From the IMG/VR virus record IMGVR_UViG_3300005663_000868, positions 1-40,553 of that record: DNA of 40,553 bases; one strand, given 5' to 3'. Position numbers and translations under genes: made by a program. Below, piece by piece: positions 1,973-33,600 of the stretch; position 1 is the stretch's first letter, and each line of letters starts with the position of its first letter. The stretch is from a virus. The notes under the pieces were generated by a model. The model was not told where the DNA came from. It saw nothing but the letters and a program-made list of their open reading frames with translations, and ran no database searches.

Positions 1973-3637
1973 TTATCCTCTCTCCTTAAACCATTTGAAC
2001 ACTTCCCTGAAGTGCGTAGGTACATAGCCTCTCTGATACAAGGCATGAAAATTCCCATCTAGTATAAACGTCACCCCCTTATCATCCGGTGCCCTCACTG
2101 CCCGACCGCACGCTTGTATCACGGTGTTCAGCGCATCAGCATCATAGCTCTGCCGTCCGAACGGTACACCCGCTACGTGATAGTCCTTCCTTGCACGTAC
2201 TACGGGATCGGACAGGTCTGCATAGGGAACCTTGGCTATTACTTGGAAGCCTATCTCATAGGGGATGTCTACTCCTGTTGCGAGAGACGGGGAGAGAACG
2301 ATCATGGGCCGTCGATCAGTCTGTAAGATTTCGATCATGGTCTCCTTCCGTGCTGATCCCCCTTCTTGCGTCTGCATGATGTAGCGGATGAAAGGCTTAT
2401 CGGCATTTATCTCTTTCTCAAGCAACCTTACAAAGAGTTCTCTCGTTATACGGAACGATCCCGTATGTATGATCCCCTTCTTCCTCTGCAACCCGTCCTG
2501 CTCAGCAAGCCATGAGATGGCAGCCGCTAGGTGATCCCACCCCTCACTGTCCGTCTTCCTATTTACCTTCTCCACCGGCCAGTAAAAGACAGGACGGTTC
2601 TCTTTGGGAAAGTATGAGGGGACTTCTATGTGTACCCACTCATCATCCGGTAGCGCAAGTTTCCTTGCAAGAATCTTCGGGTCCCCTAGCGTAGCCGACA
2701 TGATGAGGGCCTGCTTGAAGGCGAAGAACAGGGTCTTCTGTGCTACAGCCCAGCCCCATACAGGCCGGATACGTATGAAATATTTATCCTCTATCACTAC
2801 CCAATCATCAGTGTCCGGCATATTGTTAAGCATGTTCACAGTATCCATGAAGGACTGGGCCGAACGGTAATCCTTCAGCACTGTACTAGAGGGAGAATGG
2901 TCACACTCCTTACAATGCACTGATGCGTGATCACATAACGCCTTCCCGCTTCGGGTCTGTAACCACCCTACTACCCGCATCCGTACATCCTTAGCCCATG
3001 TAACAAAGTCCTGTACGCTAGCATTATATCTGGGGGCATCGAACGTCTTCGCTGTCTGCCTATTCAGTGTCACAGTCACGGCGTCAATGATCGCCTGCTC
3101 AGCCAGGTCCCCCTCATCACATACGAGTAGGTCACGACGGAAGGGATTACGTGTCATCTTCCTAATCCCCTTCGCCCTTACTATCCTTGTAGCATACGCA
3201 TAGTTTAGTACAGCTTGTGGACTATCCGCTGCTGCATACAAGGCACGATAGTAGGAGCAGCCATCCGGCGCGGGGGCTATGTACTCGCAGTCTGCGCCCT
3301 GAGCACACGGAGCGTTCTCTGCTGTGGCATTGATAGCCTTTAGCTGGTCCAGCTCACACATATGGTTACTCCGCCCTGTAACTACCTTCGCCCAGTCCAT
3401 AGTCTTAAGGCACTGCTCCTGAAGCTGCTTTGTGTGTACAGTGTATACGGATTCCACACCCAGTAACCTCTGTACTGCGGAGGCGACAAGGGTCTTACCC
3501 GATCCTGTAGGCGCAGTGAGGAGCACATACTTGTACTCCTGAAAGGCAGTAAGGATCGCTTCTACTGTATCCCTCTGTCCTGGACGCCAGGCATCAAAAG
3601 GAAGACCGAGATCGCGTGGTGTTTCTGGTGTTTGCAT
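1973..3637 (-). CDS. DinG/XPD-family superfamily 2 DNA helicase with Fe-S cysteines
   Basis: Residues 41-49 are a Walker A motif (TAPTGSGKT) and 508-515 are motif VI (QACGRAVR), as in XPD/DinG helicases. Four cysteines at 94, 111, 117 and 127 lie between motifs Ia and II, exactly where this family carries its 4Fe-4S cluster. Motif II reads CDEGD (173-177) in place of DEAH. The length of 554 is shorter than bacterial DinG but usual for phage versions. The family unwinds DNA 5' to 3'; here it probably serves replication or recombination together with the adjacent Cas4-like nuclease. Its ATG shares one base with the stop of the previous gene (TAATG). Confidence 0.9.
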   Translation of the reverse strand: MQTPETPRDLGLPFDAWRPGQRDTVEAILTAFQEYKYVLLTAPTGSGKTLVASAVQRLLGVESVYTVHTKQLQEQCLKTMDWAKVVTGRSNHMCELDQLKAINATAENAPCAQGADCEYIAPAPDGCSYYRALYAAADSPQAVLNYAYATRIVRAKGIRKMTRNPFRRDLLVCDEGDLAEQAIIDAVTVTLNRQTAKTFDAPRYNASVQDFVTWAKDVRMRVVGWLQTRSGKALCDHASVHCKECDHSPSSTVLKDYRSAQSFMDTVNMLNNMPDTDDWVVIEDKYFIRIRPVWGWAVAQKTLFFAFKQALIMSATLGDPKILARKLALPDDEWVHIEVPSYFPKENRPVFYWPVEKVNRKTDSEGWDHLAAAISWLAEQDGLQRKKGIIHTGSFRITRELFVRLLEKEINADKPFIRYIMQTQEGGSARKETMIEILQTDRRPMIVLSPSLATGVDIPYEIGFQVIAKVPYADLSDPVVRARKDYHVAGVPFGRQSYDADALNTVIQACGRAVRAPDDKGVTFILDGNFHALYQRGYVPTHFREVFKWFKERG

Positions 3638-6646: not shown

Positions 6647-6810
6647 TATAACCCCCACCTCCAAAGTGTATACATAACTCGCTTCCACCACGAGCTACCT
6701 TCATAAAGCCTTACCTCCCCACAAATACAGGGCGTGTAGAGGTGTGGTATATGATATCGCGTCAACTCGACGGACCAACTATGTCTGCCCAGCCCCGTCT
6801 CACACTTCAT
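6646..6810 (-). CDS. Hypothetical protein, 54 aa, with Cys cluster
   Basis: Start set at the ATG at 6810 because it sits in a copied initiation module (GGAGGTTGGGG, seven bases, ATGA) that also starts the next upstream gene. The product has C3 and a CICG motif near residue 34, with several aromatic residues. Its last residues LWRWGL are encoded by the ribosome site of the next gene. Not recognised. Confidence 0.55.
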   Translation of the reverse strand: MKCETGLGRHSWSVELTRYHIPHLYTPCICGEVRLYEGSSWWKRVMYTLWRWGL

Positions 6811-7277
6811 AATAGCCCCAACCTCCAAACTAAAATCACGCTAGGGAATGGTGCTGGACCGTCTTGTCCGCCGAACTTCAACCTCCCCTTAATAAACCGT
6901 GGCGTCAGTACGCCTTCAACATACTCGTGCCACCATTTGACATCAGTTGTAGCCTTCAGCAGGCCCACAACCAGTGCAGCATTACCGGCCTCTACCTCAT
7001 ATGCAGCCTTAGCGATCCAGTCCCCTACCCCTTTACCGTAAGGCGGATTCATAAAGACTTTCCCATCCCATACACGAGCGAGGCCGTCCATCCCAACTGA
7101 ACCATCGAAGAGTCTACCGCCCGCATCAAGGACTCGCTCAACTGTATACTGCCCTCGTGTTCCACACGGGTCTAGATCAAATCCATTGAACTCTGCCCAT
7201 AGTTCATCAAATAAATCACGAGGCGTCTCCCAGTCAGCTCCTTGTGATGGGAGTATGTACCCCCTATCCCCACTCAT
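6807..7277 (-). CDS. dam: Phage N6-adenine DNA methyltransferase
   Basis: A 156-residue protein of the phage N-6-adenine methyltransferase family (PF05869 type). The N-terminal WETP motif (residues 16-19), LDPCG (about 35-39, AdoMet site) and the catalytic NPPY (77-80) are all present. The family transfers a methyl group from S-adenosylmethionine to adenine N6 in a short target site, usually protecting phage DNA from restriction. The start (7277) overlaps the preceding stop as ATGA, and the final WRLGLL is read from the next gene's ribosome site. A second, diverged member is encoded at 19182-19628. Confidence 0.9.
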   Translation of the reverse strand: MSGDRGYILPSQGADWETPRDLFDELWAEFNGFDLDPCGTRGQYTVERVLDAGGRLFDGSVGMDGLARVWDGKVFMNPPYGKGVGDWIAKAAYEVEAGNAALVVGLLKATTDVKWWHEYVEGVLTPRFIKGRLKFGGQDGPAPFPSVILVWRLGLL

Positions 7278-7963
7278 AATAGCCCCAACCTCCATAGTTT
7301 GATGTGGTCCGCCGTCAGGTACAGGTGCGCCTTGATCCCATACCCCGCTGCCTGCACCTTACGCCAGAACCAGATGTCTTCCGTTCCTCGTAAGTGTCCT
7401 TCTTGGTCATGTTCCATATGGAACCAGGGCCTAGATACCATACCAAAAATAGGAGCCTCATCGTCTAACTTGGTCCCTGCTAGTTCCATAATATGGGTCC
7501 GGTCCTTCTGCCTTACATCAAACAAGCTACGAGGCAGCAAGGCACCTGACATCCCCGTCATATCTACATCAATGGTCCCCTGTCTCGCATACGTAACTGG
7601 AACAAACGGGTTCTCTGGTACTACAATTGTACTACCAGATTTTGTAGCATCATTATACGCCATCGGATGCGGCCTATTGCTCTCGTCCACTGCCATGCAG
7701 GGTGCAACATGGATGCTGTATGAGTCCTCCTCTGTCATGCCTAAGAGGGTTTCGATTGTCCCCGGTACAGGGATCACATCAAAGTCCACAATAAATAGAT
7801 AGTCATGTGATGTAGCAAGGAACCGTTCTGCCTGTACATTCCTCTGATGCTCTATGGTATACGGTCCCTTCACAATATCAACAGGGTACGGCTGCTCACA
7901 CATCCACTGTGCTGTCTCAGCATGGATGACTTCGCGGGTGATGCAGCTAATCAATACACTCAT
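7274..7963 (-). CDS. GT-A fold glycosyltransferase (family 2-like)
   Basis: Start at the ATG at 7963, overlapping the stop of the tiny membrane gene as ATGA. The 229-residue product has a Rossmann-like N-terminus, a metal-binding DFD at 60-62 within FIVDFDVIP, and the late motif GTEDIWFW at 193-200 with a His at 220, as in small GT-A transferases. It probably transfers a sugar from a nucleotide sugar to phage DNA, a virion protein or a host surface molecule; the acceptor cannot be read from the sequence. Being next to a DNA methyltransferase and polymerase makes DNA modification possible, but this is inference. Confidence 0.8.
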   Translation of the reverse strand: MSVLISCITREVIHAETAQWMCEQPYPVDIVKGPYTIEHQRNVQAERFLATSHDYLFIVDFDVIPVPGTIETLLGMTEEDSYSIHVAPCMAVDESNRPHPMAYNDATKSGSTIVVPENPFVPVTYARQGTIDVDMTGMSGALLPRSLFDVRQKDRTHIMELAGTKLDDEAPIFGMVSRPWFHMEHDQEGHLRGTEDIWFWRKVQAAGYGIKAHLYLTADHIKLWRLGLL

Positions 7964-8061
7964 GCGAATAGCACCCAACCTACCCATACTCCTATACTAA
8001 CACCGAAGGCATAGCTGCTCAATGCTATAACCTCAATAGCAACCAAGTATTTCAAGTCCAT
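7960..8061 (-). CDS. Tiny single-span membrane protein, 33 aa
   Basis: A GGAGGGGGCGAC site inside the end of the polymerase gene precedes the ATG at 8061; the gene overlaps the polymerase by 29 bases in another frame and its stop overlaps the glycosyltransferase start as ATGA. The product is almost entirely hydrophobic (residues 5-33). Its core LSSYAFGV-x2-G ... W-V-G closely matches LSSFTFGV-x2-G ... W-I-G in the 29-residue protein at 14098-14187, which supports both as real. Role unknown. Confidence 0.65.
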   Translation of the reverse strand: MDLKYLVAIEVIALSSYAFGVSIGVWVGWVLFA

Positions 8062-10465
8062 GTCGCCCCCTCCTATTATGCGTGCCCTGCCAGTCCTGCC
8101 CTACCCCCACATCCACCATCAATGGCACCCCCTCAAGTGGTTGATCCAGACACATTAAGCTTACCATAGCCGTCTCGTACCTGTCAAATGGTAAATTTAC
8201 TTCTGACAAAAGTTCGTCATGCACCTGAAGCAGCAGCCTCCCCCCTTCCAACTTACTCACGGCATTACAAGCCATCCTCGTTATGTCTGCCGCCGTACCC
8301 TGTAGAATGTGGTTAATTCCTGCCCGCTCCGCCGCCTCACGCATACTCTTATCCCCCGATACAAGGTCAGGCAGTATACGTGGCCGACCGAATGCAGTGT
8401 ATGATGTATTCTTCTGCTCTCTCATTCGTTGTATGGCAAAAGGAACCCACTCACGGAAGTAGTGTACATAGGTGTAGGTAAGTTCCTGTATACTACGAGT
8501 TGTCTCGCGTAAGGTAGGCGGCTCGCCTAATGATGGGTCTTGGAGGATCAGCTTCTCCAGTACCTCCTGCACCTGCTGTCCCTTACTCCCGTACAGTGCG
8601 CCGAACATAAAGTTCTTTGCCCTAGTACGCAGTACCTTATACTCCCCTTGATCCTCATATGGAACATGGAACAGCTTGTGTACATTCTGTGCATGTAAGT
8701 CGCCCTCGTATGTATCCGGGTCATTGTTGACTATTTTCATCAACAATGGATCACGTGAGGAGAAGGCGGCACACCTTAGCTCTAGACCCTGGTAGTCTGC
8801 TGCGAGCAGTATCTTCCCATCTTCAGCAACAAAATGGCCGCGCCATAAGAGGGAAACCTGCGTTAAGTTAGGGTCACGGGACGATATCCGCCCGCTTCTA
8901 ACATAGGCGTTAGTAAACGTGGTATGTATTCTACTGTCTGTTTGCGTGTCTTCTACCCATCCCTCAAGAAACTCCTTATACTTCTCCAGTCCTCTCCACC
9001 TAACGAGCAAGGAGATAGCGGGATGCTCATGCTGCATACGTAAGAGCGCAAGAGCACTGACTGACGGTTGCCCTGTCTTCTGAGATACAGCCTGGATGGA
9101 GATACCTAAGTGTCGGTGTAGCCACTCGACTAGCTGGGCAGAGGAGCCGGGCATTATAGGCTGGGGACTGTGGAATACTCCTACTCCCTTACATTCCTTA
9201 CAGTCTCTCTTCTTGTTCTTTCCATTATGGCATCCCCTACACACATACCTCCTGTCGGGACGCATGAACCCAGAGTCCAGTGCAAGGATATTGATCGCCT
9301 TGTCTAGTGCATCTAGCTTCTCTGTAGTATCCTTGAGTGCAACTTGTGCGCTCTCCCTGTCCAGCTTGATCCCTGCCAGCTCCATGTCAACAATTGTCTG
9401 CACCATGGGGAGATCAACGGAGTCATATAGCTGCTTAGCCTTGTCTGTCAACCCCTCTACTAGGTCCCGCTCCCCCTTCAGCGCCCAGTACGCATCACCA
9501 CAGCAGTACCGTGCCACATCTTCAGGCGGTACATCAAGGATCGATCCCCCACCAGTCACATCGTCATACTGGATCATCCTTATACCATAGGTGCGGAGTA
9601 TATAGTCCTTCAACCCTGCCCTCGGCTCCCCTGCTAGATAGGCAGCAAGCATCCCGTCTCCATGTAAGGGACCGGGGATTATACCATGACGGAGGAGGAC
9701 AGCACAATCGTACTTCGCATTCCATCCAACCCATGTCCTCTTCGGTAAACACTCCTTGAGCAACGCCATCCATCGAGGATCACTAGCCTCCCCGTAGAAA
9801 CACTTATCTCCAAACGCAAGCCCAATACCTACAAGGATATCCTTCGTCTCATTTGGTGTACTGCCTGTAACAACTGTTTCAGTATCAATCCCAATTGGTA
9901 TGGGCGTTAAAGGGGGACCGTCCCACCAGATAGGGACAAGAGACGACGCCACATCCTCATAATCCTTGTCTTCCCTTACTAACTTCCATGTATACGGCAG
10001 TACATCTATCCTCTCTGTACTACCAATAGTTTCTAAGTCCTTGATACTATTCAAAGATATGTTCAACACAGGTGAGAGTTCAACCAATGCCTGCGCTGCA
10101 TCCCACATCCGTTTATACTTATGTTTGTCTGTCTTCGGGGGGGTACGGACTAACACCTTTGCATCACTGCTTGACATACCTAGTTGGATCAAGTGCCACT
10201 CTAGCCATGTACTGACTCTATTCGCCGGGCCATCCTCTTGTGTAGTATCCGTAGCGTGTACGATGAGGACTTCTGGTGCTAACCTCCGCCAGTAGGGAAA
10301 GGCAGAAGGTTGGCAGATGATAGAGTCTCCTGACTTGAGAGAGCGCAGTGCTGTATCCCTCAAGCGTTGGGGTAGTAGGGTGCCAGACAGTCCTAATGCA
10401 ACAGCACGGGTCCGAGCAAGGGCTTCGGTTGGGCCGAGGGAGTGGAGGTCAATGTATGCTGTCAT
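8033..10465 (-). CDS. polA: Family A DNA polymerase with 3'-5' exonuclease and an inserted zinc finger
   Basis: The replicative polymerase. The proofreading domain has motif I DTET (194-197), motif II NAKYD (249-253) and motif III Y320-x3-D324. The polymerase domain has motif A ADYQGLELR (catalytic Asp 557), motif B R613-x3-K617-x3-F621-G-x2-YG and motif C QVHDE (Asp 750). The residue corresponding to E. coli Phe762 is Phe. Unusually, residues 409-425 carry two CxxC pairs (C409, C412, C422, C425) flanked by basic residues, inserted near the thumb. No 5' nuclease domain is present. The start overlaps the previous stop as ATGA. Confidence 0.95.
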   Translation of the reverse strand: MTAYIDLHSLGPTEALARTRAVALGLSGTLLPQRLRDTALRSLKSGDSIICQPSAFPYWRRLAPEVLIVHATDTTQEDGPANRVSTWLEWHLIQLGMSSSDAKVLVRTPPKTDKHKYKRMWDAAQALVELSPVLNISLNSIKDLETIGSTERIDVLPYTWKLVREDKDYEDVASSLVPIWWDGPPLTPIPIGIDTETVVTGSTPNETKDILVGIGLAFGDKCFYGEASDPRWMALLKECLPKRTWVGWNAKYDCAVLLRHGIIPGPLHGDGMLAAYLAGEPRAGLKDYILRTYGIRMIQYDDVTGGGSILDVPPEDVARYCCGDAYWALKGERDLVEGLTDKAKQLYDSVDLPMVQTIVDMELAGIKLDRESAQVALKDTTEKLDALDKAINILALDSGFMRPDRRYVCRGCHNGKNKKRDCKECKGVGVFHSPQPIMPGSSAQLVEWLHRHLGISIQAVSQKTGQPSVSALALLRMQHEHPAISLLVRWRGLEKYKEFLEGWVEDTQTDSRIHTTFTNAYVRSGRISSRDPNLTQVSLLWRGHFVAEDGKILLAADYQGLELRCAAFSSRDPLLMKIVNNDPDTYEGDLHAQNVHKLFHVPYEDQGEYKVLRTRAKNFMFGALYGSKGQQVQEVLEKLILQDPSLGEPPTLRETTRSIQELTYTYVHYFREWVPFAIQRMREQKNTSYTAFGRPRILPDLVSGDKSMREAAERAGINHILQGTAADITRMACNAVSKLEGGRLLLQVHDELLSEVNLPFDRYETAMVSLMCLDQPLEGVPLMVDVGVGQDWQGTHNRRGRHGLEILGCY

Positions 10466-10942: not shown

Positions 10943-11086
10943 TTACTCTCCCTCCTCTGTGGGGCCAAAGTCCACTCGATCAACTCCCAAGCGGTGTTGC
11001 TTCGCCACGGTCAGGAAGGCGTTAAGCAAGTTCTGAAACGTCGTGTTAGGCCGTTTGACGTGAAGCGTCACCTTTAGCTCAGCCAT
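10943..11086 (-). CDS. Hypothetical protein, 47 aa
   Basis: A short gene starting at the ATG at 11086 with a GAAGGGGGCC site inside the end of the glycosylase gene, which it overlaps by 13 bases. The product begins with a beta-strand ([12 protein letters not shown]) and ends in an acidic tail. Its stop is one base before the next start. Not recognised. Confidence 0.55.
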
Positions 11087-11646
11087 GTTTGGCCCCCTTC
11101 ACTAACTAACGTAACTGCCCTTCTTAGAGAATCTAGTATACTCTGGTCCTGCATGTTCCATGTACCCCCTGTTCTTAGTGCATGTGAGGGATGCACACTG
11201 CCAACCACAATACGTCCATCCGGTAGCATCCTCTGTAATGTAGCCATGTCATATGCCCTCGATCCTGGGAAGGATAAGTTTCCTGCTATAGTACCGAAGG
11301 CCACAATTACTTTCGGGTTGACCTCTTGTATCTCGGCATCAAGCCACAGTGGAGGACAGGTAACAAGAGCGTTCGGGTGCGCGCGGAGATCGTTCCGAGG
11401 GGGGCGGCACTTCACCACGTTGGTCAAGAAGATTTCCTCTCTATCTAGCGGCACCCTTTCGAGTATTACATCCAGCCTCTTCCCCGCAGGCCCCACTAAG
11501 GGAAGTCCCTGCTTATCCTCCTCTGCACCGGGGGCTTCGGCTATCCCCATGATATCAGCGTTGGGATTCCCATGTCCTGGTACTACTTGGGTGCGAGTGC
11601 GGTGTAGCTCACATGAAGTACAGGAGAGCATATCTTCTAGTGTCAT
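11074..11646 (-). CDS. Uracil-DNA glycosylase, family 4 type, Fe-S
   Basis: The start at 11646 overlaps the preceding stop as ATGA. The 190-residue product has motif 1 EAPG (37-40) in [18 protein letters not shown] (51-56), a TNVVKCRPP segment and the late HPS motif (152-154). Cysteines 9, 12, 80 and 97 are the four ligands of the 4Fe-4S cluster of this family. It removes uracil from DNA as the first step of base excision repair. It sits just upstream of the polymerase gene, so it may guard the phage genome against cytosine deamination or host-incorporated dUMP. Confidence 0.9.
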
Positions 11647-11939
11647 GGCATCCCCCAGCCTGTTGTCGGGGTGCCTGCTGGTAGGCGGCAGCGTTCCTGC
11701 GCTAACTGTTGCATTTGGCGGTATATCTTGACGCCTCGAACAAACAGCGGCAACGCGGGCCAACTGTAGCTGTGAGGGTTTTGCAGGCGACCTGCTGATG
11801 ACCGCACTGCACGACCGGCTTGCCCGTGGTAGTAGCCTCCGAGACCTGTTACCTTGTAGCCGCCCGCGCTGTTACGGGATGGCGTCGGCCCAGGTAGGCA
11901 CTTGTAATCCTTCCTCTTCTGTTTAAGGTGATTGCTCAT
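11643..11939 (-). CDS. Hypothetical basic protein, 98 aa
   Basis: An open frame between two firm genes: ATG at 11939 with GAGGTGC upstream, inside the end of the previous gene, and stop overlapping the glycosylase start as ATGA. The product is basic and rich in Gly, Arg and Pro, with little predicted secondary structure except near [14 protein letters not shown]. Composition is unlike its neighbours, so it may be fast-evolving. The conserved gene-junction pattern is the main support. Confidence 0.5.
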
Positions 11940-12318: not shown

Positions 12319-12741
12319 CTACTCCTCAGCCGCTTCTAGTATCATCTCAAGCGTAACCGTGTAATCCATGAAAAGTGCCTTTGCCACGCTCGCTAACTTT
12401 TTTAACCCTAAGACTAAAGCGGCGTCTGCTATATGTAGAAGATAATGATCATACCGTGACATTGGAAAGGCTCGTGTAATAATCTCAGCATAGTGTAACT
12501 CAAACGTCTCCCTCTTAGGGTTGCGGACTACGCCAAGTTTCTGTGCGTACTCTGCTACACCCACTGCAAAGCGAATCCTTGCCGTAAAGAGGTACTTCAG
12601 AGCGTCGTCTAAGGCCATAGGACTACCGGGCTCACAAATATCCGGTCCTCTTAATGCACAGGCCACGTCGTAAATAGCCCTCGTGTTCCATGCCACATCC
12701 CTTACCTGAGTAGCCTTCTTCTTCCAAAATAGTAAATTCAT
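12319..12741 (-). CDS. Helical protein related to the C-terminal domain of the KOW protein
   Basis: Starts as ATGA with the previous stop and GGAGGTGAGAG upstream. Residues about 22-138 align with the C-terminal half of the protein at 16239-16871: DV-x3-AxRGPD, LK-x-LFT-x2-IR, GVA-x-Y, HYL-x-HI-x2-AA-x-VL, then a conserved T-x-E-x-IL-x2-A-x-E at the end. Here it stands alone behind a short basic N-terminus (MNLLFWKKK). The pair defines a phage-specific helical domain of unknown role. Confidence 0.65.
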   Translation of the reverse strand: MNLLFWKKKATQVRDVAWNTRAIYDVACALRGPDICEPGSPMALDDALKYLFTARIRFAVGVAEYAQKLGVVRNPKRETFELHYAEIITRAFPMSRYDHYLLHIADAALVLGLKKLASVAKALFMDYTVTLEMILEAAEE

Positions 12742-13768: not shown

Positions 13769-14026
13769 TTAGGCTCCCTTAACCCCACCCGACGCAAGCC
13801 GTGTCCCAATAGCAAGGATCACGTCGCCTGCGCGCAGTTGTGCATCCGTGGTGTCCTTGCTAATGATGTGCCCATCCAGGGATAGCTCATTGTTGGTGAA
13901 GGGATTCACGCTGCCAAAGAACTTCTTCAGTGCATCCTTCACCGTTACCATCGTACCATTGATAGCATATGTCTCATGCTTGCTGGTCGTGGCAACAACT
14001 ACTATTCCATGTTCGTTACTTGCCAT
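13769..14026 (-). CDS. Ubiquitin-like beta-grasp protein with processable GG tail
   Basis: An 85-residue protein with the strand order of ThiS/MoaD/ubiquitin folds: a beta hairpin (residues 7-29, IVVVATTS ... ETYAINGTMVTV), a helix (29-38, KDALKKFFG), and a second half LSLDGHIISKDTT-x-AQLRAGDVILAI (48-73) that matches the ThiS-type pattern of a turn DG followed by L-x-x-GD-x-I. The C-terminus reads ASGG-VKGA: glycines 80-81 followed by four extra residues, as in ubiquitin precursors that need cleavage after GG. The same operon encodes a JAMM protease, an E1-like and an E2-like protein. A TATATAGGAGG site precedes the ATG. I infer that it is the tag of a protein conjugation system. Confidence 0.8.
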   Translation of the reverse strand: MASNEHGIVVVATTSKHETYAINGTMVTVKDALKKFFGSVNPFTNNELSLDGHIISKDTTDAQLRAGDVILAIGTRLASGGVKGA

Positions 14027-14059
14027 TCTTACCTCCTATATACGATGCTAGTAGATACT

Positions 14060-14075
14060 GGTCGTGATCACGACC
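14060..14075. promoter_or_regulatory. 16-bp perfect palindrome upstream of the ubiquitin-like gene
   Basis: GGTCGTGATCACGACC is its own reverse complement with no spacer. It lies 34 bases before the ubiquitin-like start, in the only non-coding gap of the cassette (14027-14097). A spacer-free palindrome is poor as an RNA hairpin but is a typical binding site for a dimeric regulator. It also contains TGATCA, and GATC could be a target of an adenine methyltransferase. Function is inferred. Confidence 0.45.
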
Positions 14076-14097
14076 CTTCGTTGCAGCCAGTAAAATG

Positions 14098-14187
14098 CTA
14101 AAGGGGTATGTGTGCGAATCCGATGCCTATCCAACAGCCGATAGTTCCACACACAACGCCAAAGGTAAAACTACTTAGGTGAAGCAT
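14098..14187 (-). CDS. Tiny membrane protein, 29 aa, within the ubiquitin-like cassette
   Basis: An AAGGAGG site formed by the end of the E1-like gene precedes the ATG at 14187. The product is hydrophobic from residue 4 onward, with LSSFTFGV and a W-I-G motif that match the 33-residue membrane protein at 7960-8061. It sits between E1-like and ubiquitin-like genes, so it may localise the system to the membrane; this is inference. Too short for homology search alone, but the paralogy and ribosome site argue for a real gene. Confidence 0.6.
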   Translation of the reverse strand: MLHLSSFTFGVVCGTIGCWIGIGFAHIPL

Positions 14188-14189
14188 GA

Positions 14190-14876
14190 TTATTGTACCT
14201 CCTTACTCTCTACTTGTGGTAGTGCCTGTACTGTAGGCACATGCCATACTCTCAACGCTGGGATCGGTATTCCCTTACACCACTGGTTGATCGTGCTTGC
14301 TATCTGCGATGCGAGGAACATTCCGACATATGCTGTGCCAGACTGCCCGCAGGGTACATCATCTACCTCATCGTCCGTTGGCAAGGCAGCAAGGTACTCC
14401 GCATATCCCTCCTTCGTCGTAACAGTAGCGAGGACCGCCAGCTCCCCCTGTATTCTCCCATCCAGGTAGAGAGGGACATTATGATCCCTCGCCCACTCTG
14501 CGTTGGCCTTCCTGCCTGACATAGAATCAACAGCGGATACGAGTGCAGTGGTAGGATGGCTACCGGGATACGGAAAGGGCGTACTCTGCCCACTCAAACG
14601 TAGGTACGGATTGGGCAGGCTTTGGTAGAGCGCCTCGACCTTACTCCGCCCAACATCGCTAGTGGTATAGGGTTGACAGCCCACATTCACGTCTTCAACT
14701 TCGTCAGGATCGAAGAAGATTAACCCGTATACTGCCCTACTCAATGCGTGTGCCGTCCACCCCCCTATCATCCCTACTCCTGCTATCGTCACCTCCATCT
14801 CTGCCATCTTCGGGTGTATGATCCCATGTTGTCGCTGGTGCATCACCTTTGTGTGTAGTATACGCTTACCGTCCAC
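14190..14876 (-). CDS. E1/ThiF-like adenylating enzyme
   Basis: GTG start at 14876 with GAGGAAGGGG upstream, overlapping the JAMM gene by 11 bases. The ATP-binding Rossmann motif is VTIAGVGMIGG (29-39); the acidic DPD (56-58) and Asn 64 follow as in ThiF/MoeB/E1 proteins. The usual Arg of the N-x2-RQ motif is replaced (NVGCQ). VDS-x2-GR (116-122) matches the family's D-x3-R segment. Cys 176 in VPCGQSGTAYVG is the candidate catalytic Cys. The family adenylates the C-terminal Gly of a ubiquitin-like protein and passes it to a thiol. About 30 N-terminal residues precede the Rossmann fold. Confidence 0.88.
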   Translation of the reverse strand: MDGKRILHTKVMHQRQHGIIHPKMAEMEVTIAGVGMIGGWTAHALSRAVYGLIFFDPDEVEDVNVGCQPYTTSDVGRSKVEALYQSLPNPYLRLSGQSTPFPYPGSHPTTALVSAVDSMSGRKANAEWARDHNVPLYLDGRIQGELAVLATVTTKEGYAEYLAALPTDDEVDDVPCGQSGTAYVGMFLASQIASTINQWCKGIPIPALRVWHVPTVQALPQVESKEVQ

Positions 14877-15501
14877 GTTCTTCCCCTTCCTCTGCTATCT
14901 TCCTAAACGATGCTAAGTCTTCCGCATTCCAAACGCCATACTCATATGGTAGAGCCTGACCACGTAACGAAGGATACGCCCCCTTAGGAGTCACAGGACT
15001 TTTATCTATCACCCTCTTCATCATCTGTTTTACCTGTGTAGCTACCCCGTGAGATGCAAATGTACCCTTAGCCTCTACATCCAGCTCAGCAAAGAGGCCC
15101 ACGGGATGCTCGACATCGATCCATCCGTAATACTCACCACGTAGGTTTGTAACTAGTCCGGCGAACCAGCCCAAGTCAGGGACGGACTCGGCTAGTAACT
15201 CCAGGGTGTCGTCATCCTGTCTGCTTGGGTGTGTAGTCATCCCGCAGTGTGAGTGCCACCATACGGGGTAGTCAGACAGGGTGTGTCCTTTTCTTGCTAT
15301 CTCGATTAGTGTAGTACGCAGATTCCCTTTCTCTATGTCTGTATATGCTCCTCCACCTTCTTGTGGCGGGATGATGATATCAGTAACAGTGATCTTCCCA
15401 TCCTCCAGATGCGCCTTACCAAAGCCGGATACTTCCAGTGTCGGCTCCGCTTTCACGGCAAGCCGAATCATTTGTGCTGCCTTCTGACGAAGGACTATCA
15501 T
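14866..15501 (-). CDS. JAB/JAMM-family metallopeptidase
   Basis: A complete JAMM zinc site is visible: Glu 23 in LEVSGFG, then H83-S-H85-x7-S93-x2-D96 in WWHSHCGMTTHPSRQDD. The family cleaves isopeptide or peptide bonds after the GG of ubiquitin-like proteins. Here the likely substrates are the GG-VKGA precursor from the same operon and its conjugates. The last 80 residues are an extra helical, charged extension. AGGAGGTAGAGGA precedes the ATG. It is placed between the E2-like gene (four bases away) and the E1-like gene (overlap), so expression is coupled. Confidence 0.9.
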   Translation of the reverse strand: MIVLRQKAAQMIRLAVKAEPTLEVSGFGKAHLEDGKITVTDIIIPPQEGGGAYTDIEKGNLRTTLIEIARKGHTLSDYPVWWHSHCGMTTHPSRQDDDTLELLAESVPDLGWFAGLVTNLRGEYYGWIDVEHPVGLFAELDVEAKGTFASHGVATQVKQMMKRVIDKSPVTPKGAYPSLRGQALPYEYGVWNAEDLASFRKIAEEGEERGR

Positions 15502-15505
15502 TCCT

Positions 15506-16246
15506 CTACCTCCTTAGTGCGCCGAACATAGCAGTACGCAACGCTGCAATAGTTGTAACTTCTCCCGTATCACTGCGTTGAATCTTACTTGTAGGGGGGC
15601 AGACTTCTAACCAAGCTGCACCTTCCTCTGCCCAATCATCCACATACAGACTAGTAGGATCATAGCCTAGTCTCCAACGAGAAGCGATACGCAAGAGAGG
15701 TAGCGGGTGGGGCACGGTGCTAAGAGCGAATATAACATCACCCACACTACCCCAACAAATACTCTCATTGTCTATATGCGGATGTGTCCCTTCTAACACT
15801 TCGCAGTCCATGTAGTCGTCCTCCCAAATAAGATGAAGCGTTAGCTCTGTTGTCATGCCCATGCTACCTTCATCTATGATCGCAACAGGAACAAATATAA
15901 CAATTAGGGCGTGAACCCCAACCTGGTTTGCTGCCACAACTTCAGGCCATCTACGTACTTCTGTAAGGGCATTCTCCCATACAAAGACTTCCTCACCCCT
16001 CTTAGGCATAAGATTCAGATGAGGAGAAGGACTATCACAGTATACGACTCGGCGTGTGTTTAGCCATGAATGGATGCGGCGGCTACGTAACGCAAACTCT
16101 TGCGGGTCCTCAATCCGACGCCCGTCAAGTACCCTCAGCCACCTTCCAGTGCCCACTAAGGATTGGACGGGGAGCACACCGTCATACTGTGAGACTGCGT
16201 ACTCTAAGATGGCACTGTACGATATTAGTGCTCTCTCTTCAGTCAT
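15506..16246 (-). CDS. E2-like (ubiquitin-conjugating fold) protein
   Basis: The decisive segment is THPHIDNESICWGSVGDV (154-171): HPH at 155-157 and Cys 164 reproduce the HPN-x(6-8)-C active-site arrangement of E2 enzymes and of prokaryotic E2-like proteins in JAB/E1 operons, including PRTRC protein B. A beta-rich region precedes it (residues about 105-150), and a helix-rich part with a conserved Trp follows (PLLRIASRWRLGYDP). The N-terminal 100 residues are an unassigned helical domain. It would take the tag from the E1-like protein onto Cys 164. Its start lies within the end of the KOW gene (eight-base overlap). The E2 call is by motif and context. Confidence 0.72.
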   Translation of the reverse strand: MTEERALISYSAILEYAVSQYDGVLPVQSLVGTGRWLRVLDGRRIEDPQEFALRSRRIHSWLNTRRVVYCDSPSPHLNLMPKRGEEVFVWENALTEVRRWPEVVAANQVGVHALIVIFVPVAIIDEGSMGMTTELTLHLIWEDDYMDCEVLEGTHPHIDNESICWGSVGDVIFALSTVPHPLPLLRIASRWRLGYDPTSLYVDDWAEEGAAWLEVCPPTSKIQRSDTGEVTTIAALRTAMFGALRR

Positions 16247-16871
16247 CGCTACACCACCCGCTCTCTGCTGCTACTCGTAAGATGGCCTCTTCAGTAACAG
16301 TACCAGCCCGGAAATCCCTTGCAAGGGTACGAAACGTTTCCATTTCTAACACCGTTGCCGCAGCAACGATGTGATTTAGATAGTGTCTATACTCCAGACT
16401 AATACTCCTACGCTCCTTGTATAGACTCTTGGCTATACTAATAGTTACTCCACTGTACCAGGCTACGCCGCTCATCTTCGTACGTATGGGGTTAGTGAAT
16501 AACTGTTTAAGATTAGTTGCGATCTCGGTCTGTTGATCCGGCCCCCGTATAGCAGCCAGCACGTCATACACCTGTATATCGCCCCAGTCTATCTTCGCCA
16601 GCTTCTCCGCAAGCGTTAGTGTAGCAGGCTCACGTACCTCATCGATTGCTTGGCTAACAGGATCACCACACGTATTGGGGGCTACGCCTTCTTGTACTAG
16701 TTCCATGTCTTCATACCAGAGCCATACTTCATGCAGCCTCTCCCCTATAAGCATCTTCAGGCTACCAGTATACTTTGCTAGCCCCCCTAACACCCCCTCT
16801 AGTCCCTTGAGTGCTCCCCTCTTCACCCTAAACGTCTTCCCTTGTAACTTCCTAGCTTCTTGTATGTCCAT
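16239..16871 (-). CDS. KOW-domain protein fused to a phage-specific helical domain
   Basis: Residues about 9-58 (GKTFRVKRGALKGLEGVLGG ... VWLWYEDMELV) form a KOW/SH3-like barrel as in NusG, Spt5 and ribosomal proteins, which binds RNA, ribosome or polymerase. After a linker, residues 95-205 match the stand-alone protein at 12319-12741. The fusion suggests a factor acting on transcription or translation machinery. Its end overlaps the E2-like gene, so it is the first gene of the coupled cassette; it may be a target or an adaptor, which is inference. Confidence 0.7.
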   Translation of the reverse strand: MDIQEARKLQGKTFRVKRGALKGLEGVLGGLAKYTGSLKMLIGERLHEVWLWYEDMELVQEGVAPNTCGDPVSQAIDEVREPATLTLAEKLAKIDWGDIQVYDVLAAIRGPDQQTEIATNLKQLFTNPIRTKMSGVAWYSGVTISIAKSLYKERRSISLEYRHYLNHIVAAATVLEMETFRTLARDFRAGTVTEEAILRVAAESGWCSDD

Positions 16872-17366: not shown

Positions 17367-17876
17367 CTACTTGTTCTTACTCCCCTTGGGCATTCCCCTA
17401 CTCTTCGTAGTAGTGAGAGGCCCTTTGCCCTGTTCCGCCCGCTGTAGCAACGCAGAGGCGTACTGGTAGGACACAGACTTGGGCCTGCCATCGCTACCGT
17501 CGAGCATGGCGAACGCTTCCCGTTCCTTCGCCTCTGTCCTATCGCCCCGCATGAACATACGCGCCTGCTTCCCGCCCGCCAGCATGTAGGTCCTGATCGC
17601 AGCGACGCTGTGTGTGGCGCACCTGTTGAGCAGCTTGACCTTGCTTTGGCGCGCGATCTGGGAACTCAGGGCTACCAGTTCAGGATCGTCCGTCTTGATC
17701 TGCGTAACGGTTTCCTCTGGTTGCCCCTGTGGCTTCGCAGCCGAGTGCGCTGTAACAGTTTCCGGTGTCTCCAGCTTGTCCAGGCGTGCATCCATTTCAT
17801 GCAGCGCGCCCATGATTGCCTGTAGAGCCTCAATTGTGGTAGGCTCCTCAGCCTGTGTTCTCTTTGTACGTGCCAT
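17367..17876 (-). CDS. Putative DNA-binding protein with AT-hook-like tail
   Basis: 169 residues. A coiled coil at about 14-37 could mediate dimerisation; a basic helical part follows (80-110). The C-terminus SRGMPKGSKNK (159-169) closely resembles the AT-hook RGRPKGSKNK, with Met in place of the central Arg. GGGAGG precedes the ATG. The first codons (MARTK) are shared with the next two upstream genes. A chromatin-like or transcription role is inferred. Confidence 0.6.
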   Translation of the reverse strand: MARTKRTQAEEPTTIEALQAIMGALHEMDARLDKLETPETVTAHSAAKPQGQPEETVTQIKTDDPELVALSSQIARQSKVKLLNRCATHSVAAIRTYMLAGGKQARMFMRGDRTEAKEREAFAMLDGSDGRPKSVSYQYASALLQRAEQGKGPLTTTKSRGMPKGSKNK

Positions 17877-17881
17877 GTTAC

Positions 17882-18043
17882 TTACCTCCCCTGACAGGGC
17901 TTTGGCCCTTCAACTAACATAACTGAAAGATAGAGCACGGTACACATGTTGGCGGCGTAGGCTTCGCGCTCCTCTGCACGGGCATCACTAGGCAGCGTCA
18001 ACGTACTGCCGCAGTTTGTACATGTTTTCTTTGTACGTACCAT
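17882..18043 (-). CDS. Small protein with an N-terminal CxxC knuckle, 53 aa
   Basis: GTAGGAGGAATC precedes the ATG at 18043. MVRTKKTCTNCG gives a zinc-knuckle pair at residues 8 and 11; further cysteines are at 34 and 50, enough for one zinc ribbon. The stop lies five bases before the next start, with the ribosome site shared. The N-terminus belongs to the M[A/V]RTK group. Function unknown. Confidence 0.6.
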   Translation of the reverse strand: MVRTKKTCTNCGSTLTLPSDARAEEREAYAANMCTVLYLSVMLVEGPKPCQGR

Positions 18044-18051
18044 GATTCCTC

Positions 18052-18227
18052 CTACGTCTGCAATTCCTCATACTCAACAGATGCCTTAAATGCTGCTGCA
18101 TCCGGCGTCCCACCAACACGATTACGGAACCGGCGGTACGCCCCAATTTCAAGATATAGACTGCCCATCTCTTCTAGCATATCAATATCGAGTGGAGAGT
18201 ACAGTCGTTTCTTAGTACGTGCCATTG
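18052..18227 (-). pseudogene. Frameshifted small gene of the MARTK group
   Basis: A GTAGGGGGAAACA site precedes an ATG at 18227, and the frame reads MARTKKRLYSPLDIDIC before a TAG after 17 codons. The coding pattern then continues in another frame from an ATG at 18180 for 42 codons (MLEEMGSLYLEIGAY ... EYEELQT), which has no ribosome site of its own. Removing one AT from the GATATATG run at the junction would fuse both parts into a 57-residue protein. A two-base slip mutation or an assembly error is the simplest reading; no standard slippery heptamer is present. Confidence 0.5.
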
Positions 18228-24419: not shown

Positions 24420-24812
24420 ATGCCAGATAAGGGAGGCGCTAGGATAAGTGATAACCGTCGTCGGCGTATACTGGATCGGACTGACGGTTATATTATCAAA
24501 CATCTGCCAGAGTATATTGGAATCCTTGAAGAACTGGCTAAAGGTGTATGGTTTGAGAAAGTAGATGGACGGTCTGATACCTCAAAGATATATAGGCAGA
24601 TACCTGATCGTCAGGCACTTGAGTTCCTGATTGAGCATGGGATTGGTAAGGTCCCCCAGAGGCATGAGCTATCAGGAGAAGAAGGTGAAGTTACGTTCAT
24701 CCCATGGGTGCCCACGCTGACACCTAAACCGAAGGAGATCGAAGGAGAAGTAGTAGATGCCGAGACATACGAAAAAGAGGAAACCGAAGGGGTAGCTAGT
24801 GGCACGTCCTAA
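24420..24812 (+). CDS. Putative small terminase subunit
   Basis: 130 residues directly upstream of TerL and overlapping it by 14 bases, the usual TerS place. A basic N-terminus (RISDNRRRRILDR), helices at about 25-45 and 60-75 (RQALEFLIEHGIGKVPQR) and an acidic tail fit a TerS-like DNA-recognition protein. No direct family motif is seen, so the call rests on position and size. Confidence 0.55.
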   Translation: MPDKGGARISDNRRRRILDRTDGYIIKHLPEYIGILEELAKGVWFEKVDGRSDTSKIYRQIPDRQALEFLIEHGIGKVPQRHELSGEEGEVTFIPWVPTLTPKPKEIEGEVVDAETYEKEETEGVASGTS

Positions 24813-26244
24813 GGCTCGTTTAAGCGCACAACAGCAGGCGATCCGTAAGGGCGCTGGCCCGTCTGCCAATCGTAAGGTCTTATATAAGACCCATGTCGGC
24901 GCACAGTCAGACTTTCTCATGAGTGAGGCAGAGGAGGTACTGTATGGTGGGGCGAAGGGCGGGGGGAAGTCCTATGCGCTGAGGGCCTATGCTGTAAATT
25001 ACTGTATGAGCTTTCCTGGGGCGCGTGTAGTCCTATTCCGCCAGTCCTACCGCCAGTTGGAAGAGACACATATTATCTCCATCCAACAGGAAGTGCCCCA
25101 GAGCGTGGCCCACTATTCCTCAGGCTCACACGATCTGATCTTTACAAATGGCTCCATCCTCCACTTGCGTTACTGTGAGAAAGATGAGGATGCCAGGGGC
25201 TACGACACGGCTGAGTTCGACGCCATGCTCTTTGACGAGCTGACTCACTTTACGGAATTCACCTACACTTACCTGACCACCCGCTGCCGCTCTACGAAAC
25301 CTTGGTGGACTGGACCCAGGATACGTGCTGGTGCTACCCCTCTAGGGCGGGGGCACGGTTGGGTAAAGGCGCGCTGGCTTGACAACTCGAACGTTAAGCC
25401 GAATGAGGTTTGGAAAGGCCCTGCTGACGAAGGGGGCATGACGCGCCAATTCATTCCCGCTATTGTTACCGATAATCCTACACTGATGAAGGCTGATCCT
25501 AAGTATGTAGAACGTCTCCGCGCGCTGACTCGTGAAGAGTATAAAGCTGCGATGGGGAACTGGGACGTGTTCATGGGACAGTTCTTTCAGCGGTGGGAGC
25601 CTACAATCCATGTAGTCCAGCCCTTCGACATTCCGGCTGACTGGGACCGCTTCATGTGTGTAGACTATGGGTTCGCTGCGCCCTACTGTGTGCTGTGGTT
25701 TGCCCGTCCGCCTGGGACGAAATCTGCATACTTCTATCGTGAACAGTATGGTGTGGGGGTAAAACTCCCTGAACAAGTCTATAGGGCACACCAGTCTGTG
25801 GTTGATTCCTCAGAGAAGATTCGAGCCATTATTCTCGACCCCTCAATGTTTGGCAAGATCAATGTTAAGGGGGATCGTGTGGAGTCCCTATCTGCTGAAT
25901 GGGAGAAACAGTTCGGCGGCACAACTAGGATTATCAAAGGAAACAATGAACGGGTTGCGGGATGGCGGAAGTTACGTGAGATGATCGACTGGACAGAGGC
26001 CCCACAAGGGGGGATTTTGGCACACCCTCACTTGTATGCCTTTAATACCTGTGTTAATCTAGTCCGAACACTGCCCCTGTTGATCTCAGACGAGCACAAC
26101 ATTGAAGATGTAGATTCTGATGGGGAAGACCACGCCGGGGATGCTGCTAGGTATGGTATACAGCACGCCTTTGCTGGGGGTGGCAGGCACGGCGTACAGC
26201 GCAGTTACAGTCTTGGCCCTAACGGTATTGTGGTGAGGAGGTAA
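24799..26244 (+). CDS. terL: Terminase large subunit
   Basis: Walker A GGAKGGGKS (50-58), Walker B with catalytic acid AMLFDE (142-147) and, in the nuclease half, the metal-binding CVDYGF (Asp about 289), LDPSMFG and a late DHAGDAARYG. Length 481 is normal. It powers DNA packaging into the prohead and cuts concatemers. It belongs to the terminase group with RNase H-fold nuclease. An in-frame MARPK start is used, overlapping the upstream gene. Confidence 0.95.
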   Translation: MARPKARLSAQQQAIRKGAGPSANRKVLYKTHVGAQSDFLMSEAEEVLYGGAKGGGKSYALRAYAVNYCMSFPGARVVLFRQSYRQLEETHIISIQQEVPQSVAHYSSGSHDLIFTNGSILHLRYCEKDEDARGYDTAEFDAMLFDELTHFTEFTYTYLTTRCRSTKPWWTGPRIRAGATPLGRGHGWVKARWLDNSNVKPNEVWKGPADEGGMTRQFIPAIVTDNPTLMKADPKYVERLRALTREEYKAAMGNWDVFMGQFFQRWEPTIHVVQPFDIPADWDRFMCVDYGFAAPYCVLWFARPPGTKSAYFYREQYGVGVKLPEQVYRAHQSVVDSSEKIRAIILDPSMFGKINVKGDRVESLSAEWEKQFGGTTRIIKGNNERVAGWRKLREMIDWTEAPQGGILAHPHLYAFNTCVNLVRTLPLLISDEHNIEDVDSDGEDHAGDAARYGIQHAFAGGGRHGVQRSYSLGPNGIVVRR

Positions 26245-30647: not shown

Positions 30648-33600
30648 ATTCCCTTTAGATTTGGTGATACTATCTTTCGCATGGCGCGTCGGAGGCGTCC
30701 GACACAGTCCATTATACATGGGCCGGAACCACTCCCCCTGTCGCCTGTCCCTGAACCCAGGCCGATCTCTACACCTGTACGGAGCCAGCTAATACGGGCT
30801 CTAGAAGCACAGGCTCAAGCGACGCCTATGATTGAGGCTGAGAGTCAGCTAGGACAGCGATCACAGCGTCTTCAAGATGACTATCGCCTACAACTTCAGA
30901 GGGATGCTGCATTCGCTCAAGAGGCAGAACAGGCTAGAGATGAGCAAGACCGTAACCAACTAGAGCTTCTGCGTGAGGGGTTTGCTCCAGATGAAGACGA
31001 TCTGGGCGCAGATGTACGTCAGGCTGCTGCGTTCCGTGCGGGTACGCAGGACCGTCCCTATTATGAGGTATTAGAAGAAGAACGGTTAAACGAAGGCACA
31101 CGGCGTCTGAAGGCATTTGGTGATATGATGGAGAACCTATCACCTGAGCTACGTGTGGCATTAGCTCCCATGGCAGCAGCAGTGCAGAAGGAGGGACTAT
31201 CTGCGAAGGCATTTAAGGATATTGCTATTGCTGCCCGTGCGGAAGATAATAGCATTTGGCGCTTCTCAGCAGAAGATCGCGCACGGGCTAATCGCGTGAT
31301 AGCTACGCTTGGTCCGCCTATTGATCCCATTCCTGTGATTCCTGAAGGGGAACGTCCGTCTATACGTGAGCAGTTAGGACGCGAACCACGGGAGGAGCCG
31401 GAAACGGTACTAGGGGGACTTAAGGAATCTGTTAAGGCTATTCCGGGAGCAGTAAAGGATATAACTGCTATTGAACCGACAGTTAGCTTGGTTACCAATC
31501 TGGGGCAGGCCGTAGACGCCTTAGTTACTGGCGATTTTAAGGGAGCAGGAGCGGAGCTGCGTGAAGCAGGTGATGATATTGTTACCACAGGTGTTATACC
31601 AGGACTACAGCAGGAGCGTATCCTAACTGCCCTGGAAGCTGAACAGGATGTTATTACACCTATCACACGTCCTTTCCTCCGTACCACATTGACAAGTGCA
31701 GGCGTGCCCGATAATTGGGCAGAACCAATATCTAAGTATGGGGCCGAGTTCCTTGTTCCTAGCTCACTGCTTCCTGTATCTCGAATTAAGGCTGGAGTGC
31801 CGATCCTAAAACAACTGCCTGCTTTAATAAATGTCATGGCTCAGGAAGGGGCCATCAACGTTGGACAGGATATCGCGGGAAGGCGCTCACGTGGGGAAGA
31901 TGATCCCACGCTAGCAGAGAGCCTGCTTATCTTTGCCGCTGGTGGCCTCGCTCGTGGTGGACTAGAGACAATTGTGGGTCCGTTTGTTAAAAAGACAATT
32001 ACTCCGTTCATTGATAAGTTGCGAGGGAGGGGCGTGCCTGTAGATGTTCCGATCTCACAGGTGGATGATCCTCGGTTCTTTGCCGATGTAGCGGAGGAGG
32101 CTGTACCTTCTCCCGCTGTGCGTGCCGTGGAGCCTGGGGCTGCTCAAGTGGAAGGTGCAGGACTTACATTTACCCCTCGTACTCAAAGTCCAACAGACAT
32201 TACAAAGGGACAGATTATTGAGGATGCCACTGATGCTGGGGGACGACGTATAGGGGAGATTGAATATAGAATTGATCCTCGCCAACTAGAGCGTGTAGAG
32301 GTTGTCAATGTCTTTGTGGAAGAGGAGTTCCGTGGACAGGGCTTTGGTAGTGCCCTACGTAACCGTGCAATAGAAGCCGGGCAGGAGCGGGGGGCCGCAC
32401 GGGTTACAGGAGAAGCTATTAGTACTGAGGGTGGAAGGCTTGGCGGTGGAGTTAAGGGTGAAGAGTTTGATGTTGATATTCCACCAAAGGCTGTGACAGA
32501 GGCCCCCACAAAACCTGGCGACGTGGTGGATGAAGCTATCGCGCGCGGCGAAGACTCCCCGCTTACAACCTTTCAGCCTAAGCCAGAAGGCGACCTTCCT
32601 GAACGGATAGCCGCGCTTGAGGCGGGTGTAAAGCAGGCTGATGATGCGGTGGACGGTGCAGTACGAGGAACAAAGGGGGCCTTACGTAAGACAGCACAAG
32701 AACTACGTGCCAAGCTCAGAGGTGCGAATAAAGAACTGAAGGACATACAGGACTATAACCAGTTTGAGCTTCCCAAGCTGCGGGACAGGATGGCGGTCCG
32801 TCTCGACCGTGCTCAGAAAACTGCTGACATTCAGCGTGGTAAGGCAGAACGCGCAACTCCGGCCCGCCGTGATCAGGCTAGGATAGATGCACAAGCGGCA
32901 GAAGGACGGGCAAATGTTCTAGCTGATAACCCTGGGGCTGTAGATAAATTGACCGATGCGGTGCAGTCAGCACGACGTAGTGTGACGTTGGCGGAGGTGG
33001 AAGTTAGCGCAGGACGGCGTACCCAAGCTGCTGCCGCTGGACGCGCTCTTGAAAGTGCGACAGGACTACCAATTGGCGAGCAGATTGCCCGTACACGTGG
33101 GGCACTAAAGGGAAAGATACGTCCTGAAGGGCTGGAAGGCGCAGCGGTACGGCTTGATCCCGAAACGGAACAGGTATTGACTGATGCAATTAATCAGTAT
33201 TTCCGTGTTACGAAGAAACAACCGCTGAAGGCGGGGAACGCACTTGAGGCGTTGGAATCGGTGCTGACAGGTGATTACAACAAGCTCACACGGTCGAAGC
33301 TGGACCTTTTAGAAGATGCGTTAGGCTTTGACTTCCACGTTGCGCTGACAAAGGCAATGGCCGAGGCCCCGCTGAAGGTGTCGGATGAGATTCTTTGGGG
33401 CGCATTGACTGTCTGGAATCTCCCGCGTCGGTTCTTGGCAGGACTGGGCGACTGGTCCTATATGTTACGTCAGGACCTTTTCTCCGCCATCACTGAACCC
33501 GGACTATGGCTTCGGCGTGCCAGAACGTATCCTGAGGCTTTCCTTAGCGCGACGGATGCAGCGAAGACGACTGAGAGGCTGATAGATGATCCGGTCTACC

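Follow-up and report, generated by a model that had tools for sequence, protein, structure and literature searches.

The DNA considered here is the whole of the IMG/VR record IMGVR_UViG_3300005663_000868 (40,553 nucleotides; hereafter the window), which its terminase, capsid and PolA genes mark as a tailed phage. Four open reading frames (ORFs) on its minus strand, at 13769-16246, encode, in the order E2-JAB-E1-Ubl, a protein resembling E2 enzymes, a peptidase of the JAMM (JAB) type, a minimal ThiF-type E1 and a beta-grasp ubiquitin-like modifier (Ubl). We consider it very probable that this cassette provides a self-contained and reversible phage ubiquitin-like conjugation pathway. A preliminary description of the window had listed the four ORFs together with their presumptive catalytic residues, and all coordinates and residues were confirmed from the ORFs and the sequence. 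It had also portrayed the genes as overlapping or nearly touching; this is true of E2 and JAB, which are 4 nucleotides apart, and of JAB and E1, which overlap by 11 nucleotides, but not of the Ubl gene, which is separated from E1 by 163 nucleotides. Shine-Dalgarno-like sites are clear at the Ubl and JAB starts, that of the Ubl reading 'aggagg'. This phage is represented in IMG/VR by a second contig (61 kb), which matches the window at 99.98% identity, and the cassette is therefore no assembly artefact; among phage records, no near DNA match to the window was found.

Components of the cassette

The E1 gene (14190..14876, minus strand, GTG start) encodes 228 residues that include G33-V-G-M-I-G-G39, DPD56-58, N64, K79, D117, DGR139-141 and Cys176. 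The protein matches Pfam ThiF over the cut-off (4e-9), and the best match of its family profile among solved structures is UBA5 (4e-15), followed by MccB, ThiF, MoeB and Cap2. G33, G35, N64, Q68, K79, D117, D139, R141, E145 and C176 are conserved in 85 of 85 relatives. UBA5 is itself a minimal single-domain E1, and to this extent the cassette resembles the eukaryotic UBA5-UFM1 system, yet no sequence link of the window Ubl or E2 to UFM1 or UFC1 is in evidence. A match to Acinetobacter phage MD-2021a was discarded, being TcdA-like and located in a host-like contig.

The JAMM/JAB metallopeptidase (14866..15501, minus strand, 211 residues) displays E23 and H83-x-H85-x7-S93-x2-D96. By itself the window protein scores under the Pfam cut-off for Prok-JAB (8.9e-5); a profile of its six-member clade matches RPN11, CSN5 and JAMM1 at 3e-5 to 3e-4, and AMSH as well. 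Since RPN11, CSN5 and AMSH are deubiquitinases, this likeness argues for ubiquitin-like conjugation. E23, H83 and H85 are kept in 73 of 74 relatives, S93 and D96 in 72. The JAB of one relative (L058) has a Cys-rich tail.

The candidate modifier (13769..14026, minus strand, 85 residues) consists of a beta-grasp core (residues 5-75) and a flexible tail, RLASGGVKGA. Its AlphaFold2 model, with a mean predicted local distance difference test score (pLDDT) of 71.7, has the succession beta-beta-alpha-beta-beta-beta and is disordered from residue 76 onwards. The nearest folds are the ThiS/MoaD-like MTH1743, MoaD, SAMP1, SUMO and Urm1 (Z 7.5-8.4); a Z near 8 is modest when taken alone, but nearly all of the top structure matches are beta-grasp. 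The preliminary description had made its reading depend on a beta-grasp fold for this 85-residue protein, and both the predicted model and the fold matches display one. In a viral Foldseek library the Ubl also matched proteins of phage cr111_1 and Flavobacterium phage Fpv3 which, by their length, are the Ubl genes already picked from synteny, and this independent convergence, together with the fold, argues for Ubl conjugation. A Pfam scan of 15 Ubls and PDB profile searches returned chance-level matches only. Gly80 is conserved in 73 of 74 sequences, the next residue being variable, and the Ubls of the two sibling loci (L002 and L023) end ...RLASGG[VI]KGA like that of the window. The GG-VKGA ending reported earlier is thus present in the sequence, with the correction that the mature terminus is likely Gly80 (or 81) and that a short tail lies beyond it.

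Might the Ubl be a sulfur carrier rather than a protein tag? In such a pathway a ThiS/MoaD-like Ubl would be trimmed by JAB and converted by the E1 into a thiocarboxylate, the pathway would end in a thiolated nucleotide, tRNA or cofactor, and the fourth gene would not encode an E2. The nearest Ubl folds do include MoaD/ThiS, the E1 does match ThiF/MoeB models, and the cassette genes of crAss-like and Flavobacterium phages carry the public labels 'thiamine biosynthesis protein', 'metalloprotease domain' or 'hypothetical', the first of them on a crAss homologue. Judged from its sequence, this last protein is an E1 and its annotation a database error. No sulfurtransferase, rhodanese or biosynthetic partner was found among the ORFs scanned, the E1 cysteine is invariant (85/85), and a fourth gene with an invariant cysteine, which sulfur carriers do not need, is linked in 78 of 80 loci. 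We therefore regard a sulfur-carrier pathway as very improbable.

The fourth gene (15506..16246, minus strand) encodes a 246-residue E2-like protein with HPH155-157 and the putative catalytic Cys164 in HPHIDNESICWG; the motif as read from the sequence, HPHIDNESIC, spans the codons from H155 to C164 (15755..15784, minus strand). Eukaryotic E2s have the motif HPN-x7-C, from which HPH-x6-C in the window differs by one residue and one letter. An H-x-H...C-x-G motif is conserved across phage and bacterial relatives: C164 and G166 are present in 81 of 81 aligned sequences, H157 in 79 and H155 in 74 (F in the remaining seven). Within a set of 32 E2s, of which the 31 others are 11-21% identical to the window protein, no column other than M1, H157, C164 and G166 is invariant. 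This motif, and the fact that the gene is strictly found together with those for E1, JAB and Ubl, lead us to regard the protein as a putative E2. The sibling E2s (L002:5598-7019 and L023:4275-5315) bear a Cys-rich C-terminal extension, with two CxxC...CxC units and then two CxxC pairs, which is a candidate zinc-binding and perhaps built-in E3-like module; the window E2 ends before it.

Distribution among phages and bacteria

Scans for close relatives alone reached only two other contigs, and a broad E1 alignment was needed to see further. Aligning the window E1 with E1s of crAss-like and flavobacterial phages led to 102 IMG/VR phage contigs; 80 of these were retained, near-duplicates and a few of the named phages themselves included. 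Profiles built solely from ten annotated phages detected JAB in 76 of the 80 contigs, E2 in 71 and Ubl in 67. With profiles of the window clade added, these figures became 78, 78 and 72, with all four genes in 72, a rise that is partly circular for the five loci used in building them; L058 and L075, which stood outside profile building, gave an E2 score of 5e-14. The Ubl is small and easily overlooked by a profile, and the two loci that lack other cassette genes (L063 and L065) are both cut by a contig end. That E2 and JAB adjoin E1 in 78 of 80 contigs found from E1 alone is one reason for reading the cassette as a reversible Ubl-conjugation system.

In 68 of the 72 full sets the genes lie in the order Ubl-E2-JAB-E1, on one strand and overlapping or touching; the siblings L002 and L023 have the order of the window. 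Identities between siblings and window are 54-63% for E1 and Ubl, 52-53% for JAB and about 30% for E2, which makes the E2 the fastest-diverging cassette gene (30% against 52-59% for the other three), as expected of the component that chooses targets. The siblings retain the gene set, its order and the catalytic residues at 28-58% identity, well beyond chance. The best-conserved columns in E1, E2 and JAB are the catalytic residues, though the E2s are only 11-21% identical overall. Choosing relatives by similarity favours conservation generally, but does not explain why precisely the catalytic columns are conserved.

By tblastn, the window E1 matches 73 phage records and crAss gp78 matches 74, mostly of the same phages. 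The cassette occurs in the Steigviridae (crAss001, DAC15, cr106_1, cr111_1, cr126_1, cr128_1, cr85_1 and Kolpuevirus 'frurule'), in Dulem virus 41 and in Flavobacterium psychrophilum phages (FpV4, Fpv1-3). The crAss001 block reads gp79 (Ubl), gp78 (E2), gp77 (JAB), gp76 (E1), one further gene and a uracil-DNA glycosylase (UDG) gene. As in the window, the cassette genes of the crAss-like and F. psychrophilum phages are adjacent and lie in the replication region by primase and UDG, and the E1 cysteine and JAMM residues are invariant. In contrast to the window, the gene order is Ubl-E2-JAB-E1 instead of E2-JAB-E1-Ubl, the E2 motif is HSH-x(8-25)-C-x-G instead of HPH-x6-C, the Ubl often has long C-terminal domains and the E1 is about 25% identical to the window E1. 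Direct alignment connects the E1s, and profile-profile comparison connects the JABs significantly; the same comparison gave no significant match between window and crAss E2 or Ubl, so that for these two the connection rests on motif, gene order and Foldseek. Most crAss-like and flavobacterial Ubls (crAss001 gp79, L007:2238-2915 and others) continue past a conserved Lys-Ser-Gly into a helical domain 100-200 residues long, and those of L025, L046, L053 and cr106_1 have only 1-5 residues beyond it.

Outside phages, a genome scan placed the nearest E1s in Candidatus Methylomirabilota, Ryanbacteria, Nomurabacteria, another Patescibacterium and a Chloroflexi metagenome-assembled genome (MAG). An E1 tree groups the window clade with the Methylomirabilota and Patescibacteria (98/87), separately from a crAss/flavobacterial clade (93/80); the root is unsure because the outgroup branch is very long. 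In the Methylomirabilota (NC10) loci the E2 has HPHI..CLG and the Ubl ends in PKIRGG, sometimes with a few residues beyond. Because these relatives unite such an E2 and Ubl with an E1, they too favour the Ubl-conjugation reading. Like the window, the Methylomirabilota and Patescibacteria operons, its nearest E1, E2 and Ubl kin beyond phages, combine an E1 of the same clade with a single small Ubl and, in some cases, a JAB, which was seen in L101 and Patescibacteria and is missing from most NC10 loci. They differ in being cellular MAG loci, and their Ubls, which terminate in GG or KNG, mostly have a short tail or none. Taken as a group, the E2-E1-Ubl operons of these Methylomirabilota, Patescibacteria and Chloroflexi MAGs (L101-L114) represent a putative small cellular ubiquitin-like system. 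The notion that a Ubl tail occurs only together with a JAB was ruled out, as the Ubl of L101 ends in GG with no tail although a JAB is present, while a tail is found in L107, where no JAB was seen.

Relation to known conjugation systems

Iyer et al. 2006 (PMC1779556) anticipated bacterial operons of E1, E2, JAB and Ubl genes, and the window cassette fits them by its parts. The preliminary description had cited PRTRC, CBASS and Bil as known gene sets of this kind; membership in each was rejected, as their defining features were tested and failed. Like PRTRC cassettes, which are type 6d in Iyer et al. 2006, the window keeps E1, E2-like protein, JAB and Ubl as separate genes of a mobile element, and the best plasmid match of its E1 is PRTRC ThiF. 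However, among the curated PRTRC A, B, C and ThiF models only ThiF matched, at 24.7 bits against a cut-off of 144.75, and no ParB-related or PRTRC E or F gene was found among ten proteins around the cassette. The PRTRC E2 is without an upstream histidine and has a conserved histidine after the cysteine (PMC1779556), unlike the window E2 with its HPH upstream of Cys164; comparison of the latter with a PRTRC E2 was not significant, although C-x-G lines up by eye. CBASS Cap2/Cap3 and 6A-MBL systems share the E1, E2 and JAB chemistries, with weak profile matches for E1 and JAB. They rely on fusions of E1 with E2 (or of all three) and use no separate Ubl, whereas the window has four separate genes; no CD-NTase, as in CBASS, was found among the scanned neighbours of the cassette. 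Lambdoid tail assembly genes TAPI/TAPK likewise place a phage Ubl beside a JAB peptidase (Iyer et al. 2006, PMC1779556), but in a tail module and without E1 or E2.

The Bil system (BilABCD) has the same four-gene content of Ubl, E1, E2 and JAB (PMC11354881). Conceivably, then, the phage might put its Ubl on virion proteins of other phages, or on its own, and so control assembly or infectivity; the rapid divergence of the E2, expected for a recogniser of changing targets, would suit this use. Against it, Bil-specific features are missing from E2, E1 and Ubl alike. BilA has two Ubl domains, BilD combines inactive and active adenylation domains with an 80-residue Cys domain, and the BilB E2 motif is C-E-H-H, with its histidines after the cysteine (PMC11354881). 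The window Ubl, in contrast, is a single domain of 85 residues, the 228-residue E1 has one ThiF domain, and the E2 has neither Glu at +6 nor His at +8 or +13 after Cys164. In addition, the cassette lies with replication genes and not in a cargo or late region, and its position is kept across lineages, unlike that of defence cargo. Exclusion of competitors in this manner is accordingly unlikely, if still worth considering.

Since host CBASS and Bil conjugation systems exist, and the JAMM peptidase belongs to the same superfamily as their proteases, the cassette, above all JAMM and Ubl, might instead cleave host conjugates or act as a decoy. A decoy would not need the full set of E1 and E2 catalytic residues, yet these are invariant, and we deem counter-defence improbable.

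Proposed pathway and genomic setting

The four genes, their linkage, the conserved catalytic residues and, in its predicted model, the beta-grasp fold of the Ubl are established, and from these we infer every chemical step. We envision that the JAMM peptidase trims the short Ubl tail after the conserved G80 (possibly G81), upon which the UBA5/ThiF-like E1 would adenylate the Ubl glycine with ATP and carry the Ubl on Cys176. The Ubl would then be passed to Cys164 of the E2, which would attach it to an amine of the target, most likely a lysine. Finally, the same JAMM peptidase would take the Ubl off the target again.

Several observations speak against this scheme. The AlphaFold2 model of the window E2 (pLDDT 34, built on a two-sequence alignment) did not recover an E2 fold, a Pfam scan of 32 E2s and PDB profile searches yielded chance-level matches only, and the spacing from H to C in crAss E2s is longer and variable. 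Trimming of the tail by JAB is not proven by correlation, because MAG Ubls end in GG or a short tail regardless of a nearby JAB. Moreover, 30 of the 80 loci, including some truncated ones, have no UDG neighbour. The poor model and the lack of profile matches leave room for the fourth protein to be another thiol enzyme, such as a cysteine ligase, or a scaffold, the Ubl going from E1 to target directly. E1-only Ubl systems, such as the archaeal SAMPs, are known. Set against this, HPH-x6-C-x-G is nearly the eukaryotic HPN-x7-C, a helix is predicted after it, as in E2s (albeit in a low-confidence model), and the H...C-x-G motif is the sole invariant part of the protein. We give the direct route from E1 to target little chance, and retain the E2-dependent conjugation pathway.

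What might the conjugation pathway modify? The claim that a complete phage-borne set of tag, E1, E2 and JAMM genes lies beside replication genes is supported. A family A DNA polymerase (8033..10465, minus strand; PHROG DNA polymerase, 1e-69) represents the replication module, and a UDG (11074..11763, minus strand; Pfam UDG, 9.7e-27) lies downstream of the cassette on the same strand; in 50 of 80 phage loci a UDG is found within about 6 kb. Because the cassette is situated among replication genes by UDG and recurs so in unrelated phage groups, an argument of guilt by association, we tentatively favour replication and repair proteins or early host takeover as its target, ahead of virion assembly, superinfection exclusion and counter-defence, while holding each such assignment to be short of probable. 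More speculatively still, a large and old phage family that includes the abundant human-gut crAss-like phages might run its own cycle of tagging and de-tagging on the replication and repair machinery, with an E2 whose HPH-x6-C comes near the eukaryotic HPN-x7-C.

So far, Ubl conjugation in bacteria has mainly been met in plasmid cassettes and in defence systems of the host (CBASS, Bil). That many phages retain the full gene set in their replication module, its active sites intact, implies, as far as sequence can tell, that bacterial viruses use such chemistry themselves. Among open-licence PubMed Central papers (preprints and most subscription journals lay outside the search), none was found on a complete phage-encoded cassette, or on crAss phages together with ThiF or ubiquitin. 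Ready test systems exist in crAss001, DAC15 and the F. psychrophilum phages, which have all been isolated and have named laboratory hosts.

Elsewhere in the window, the large terminase subunit (24799..26244, plus strand; PHROG terminase, 3e-37) and the major head protein (36673-37578) mark a tailed phage, and a DEAD-type helicase (1973-3637) and a Dam methylase (6807-7295) are encoded as well. No tyrosine integrase was detected in the window, its 61-kb near-copy or the two siblings, with all control genomes positive, in line with the earlier designation of the phage as lytic-type. The ORFs flanking the cassette (12319-12741 and 16239-16871, both on the minus strand) each contain a YDV-x2-A-x-RGPD stretch and look like paralogues. 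In the structural region, a 1614-residue protein (30681-35525, plus strand) has a GNAT acetyltransferase domain inside. Three neighbouring minus-strand ORFs (17367-17876, 17882-18043 and 18052-18225) begin with MARTKRTQ, MVRTKKT and MARTKKR, a common basic N-terminus that resembles the start of the histone H3 tail, ARTKQT, and may reflect either chance or a small gene family.

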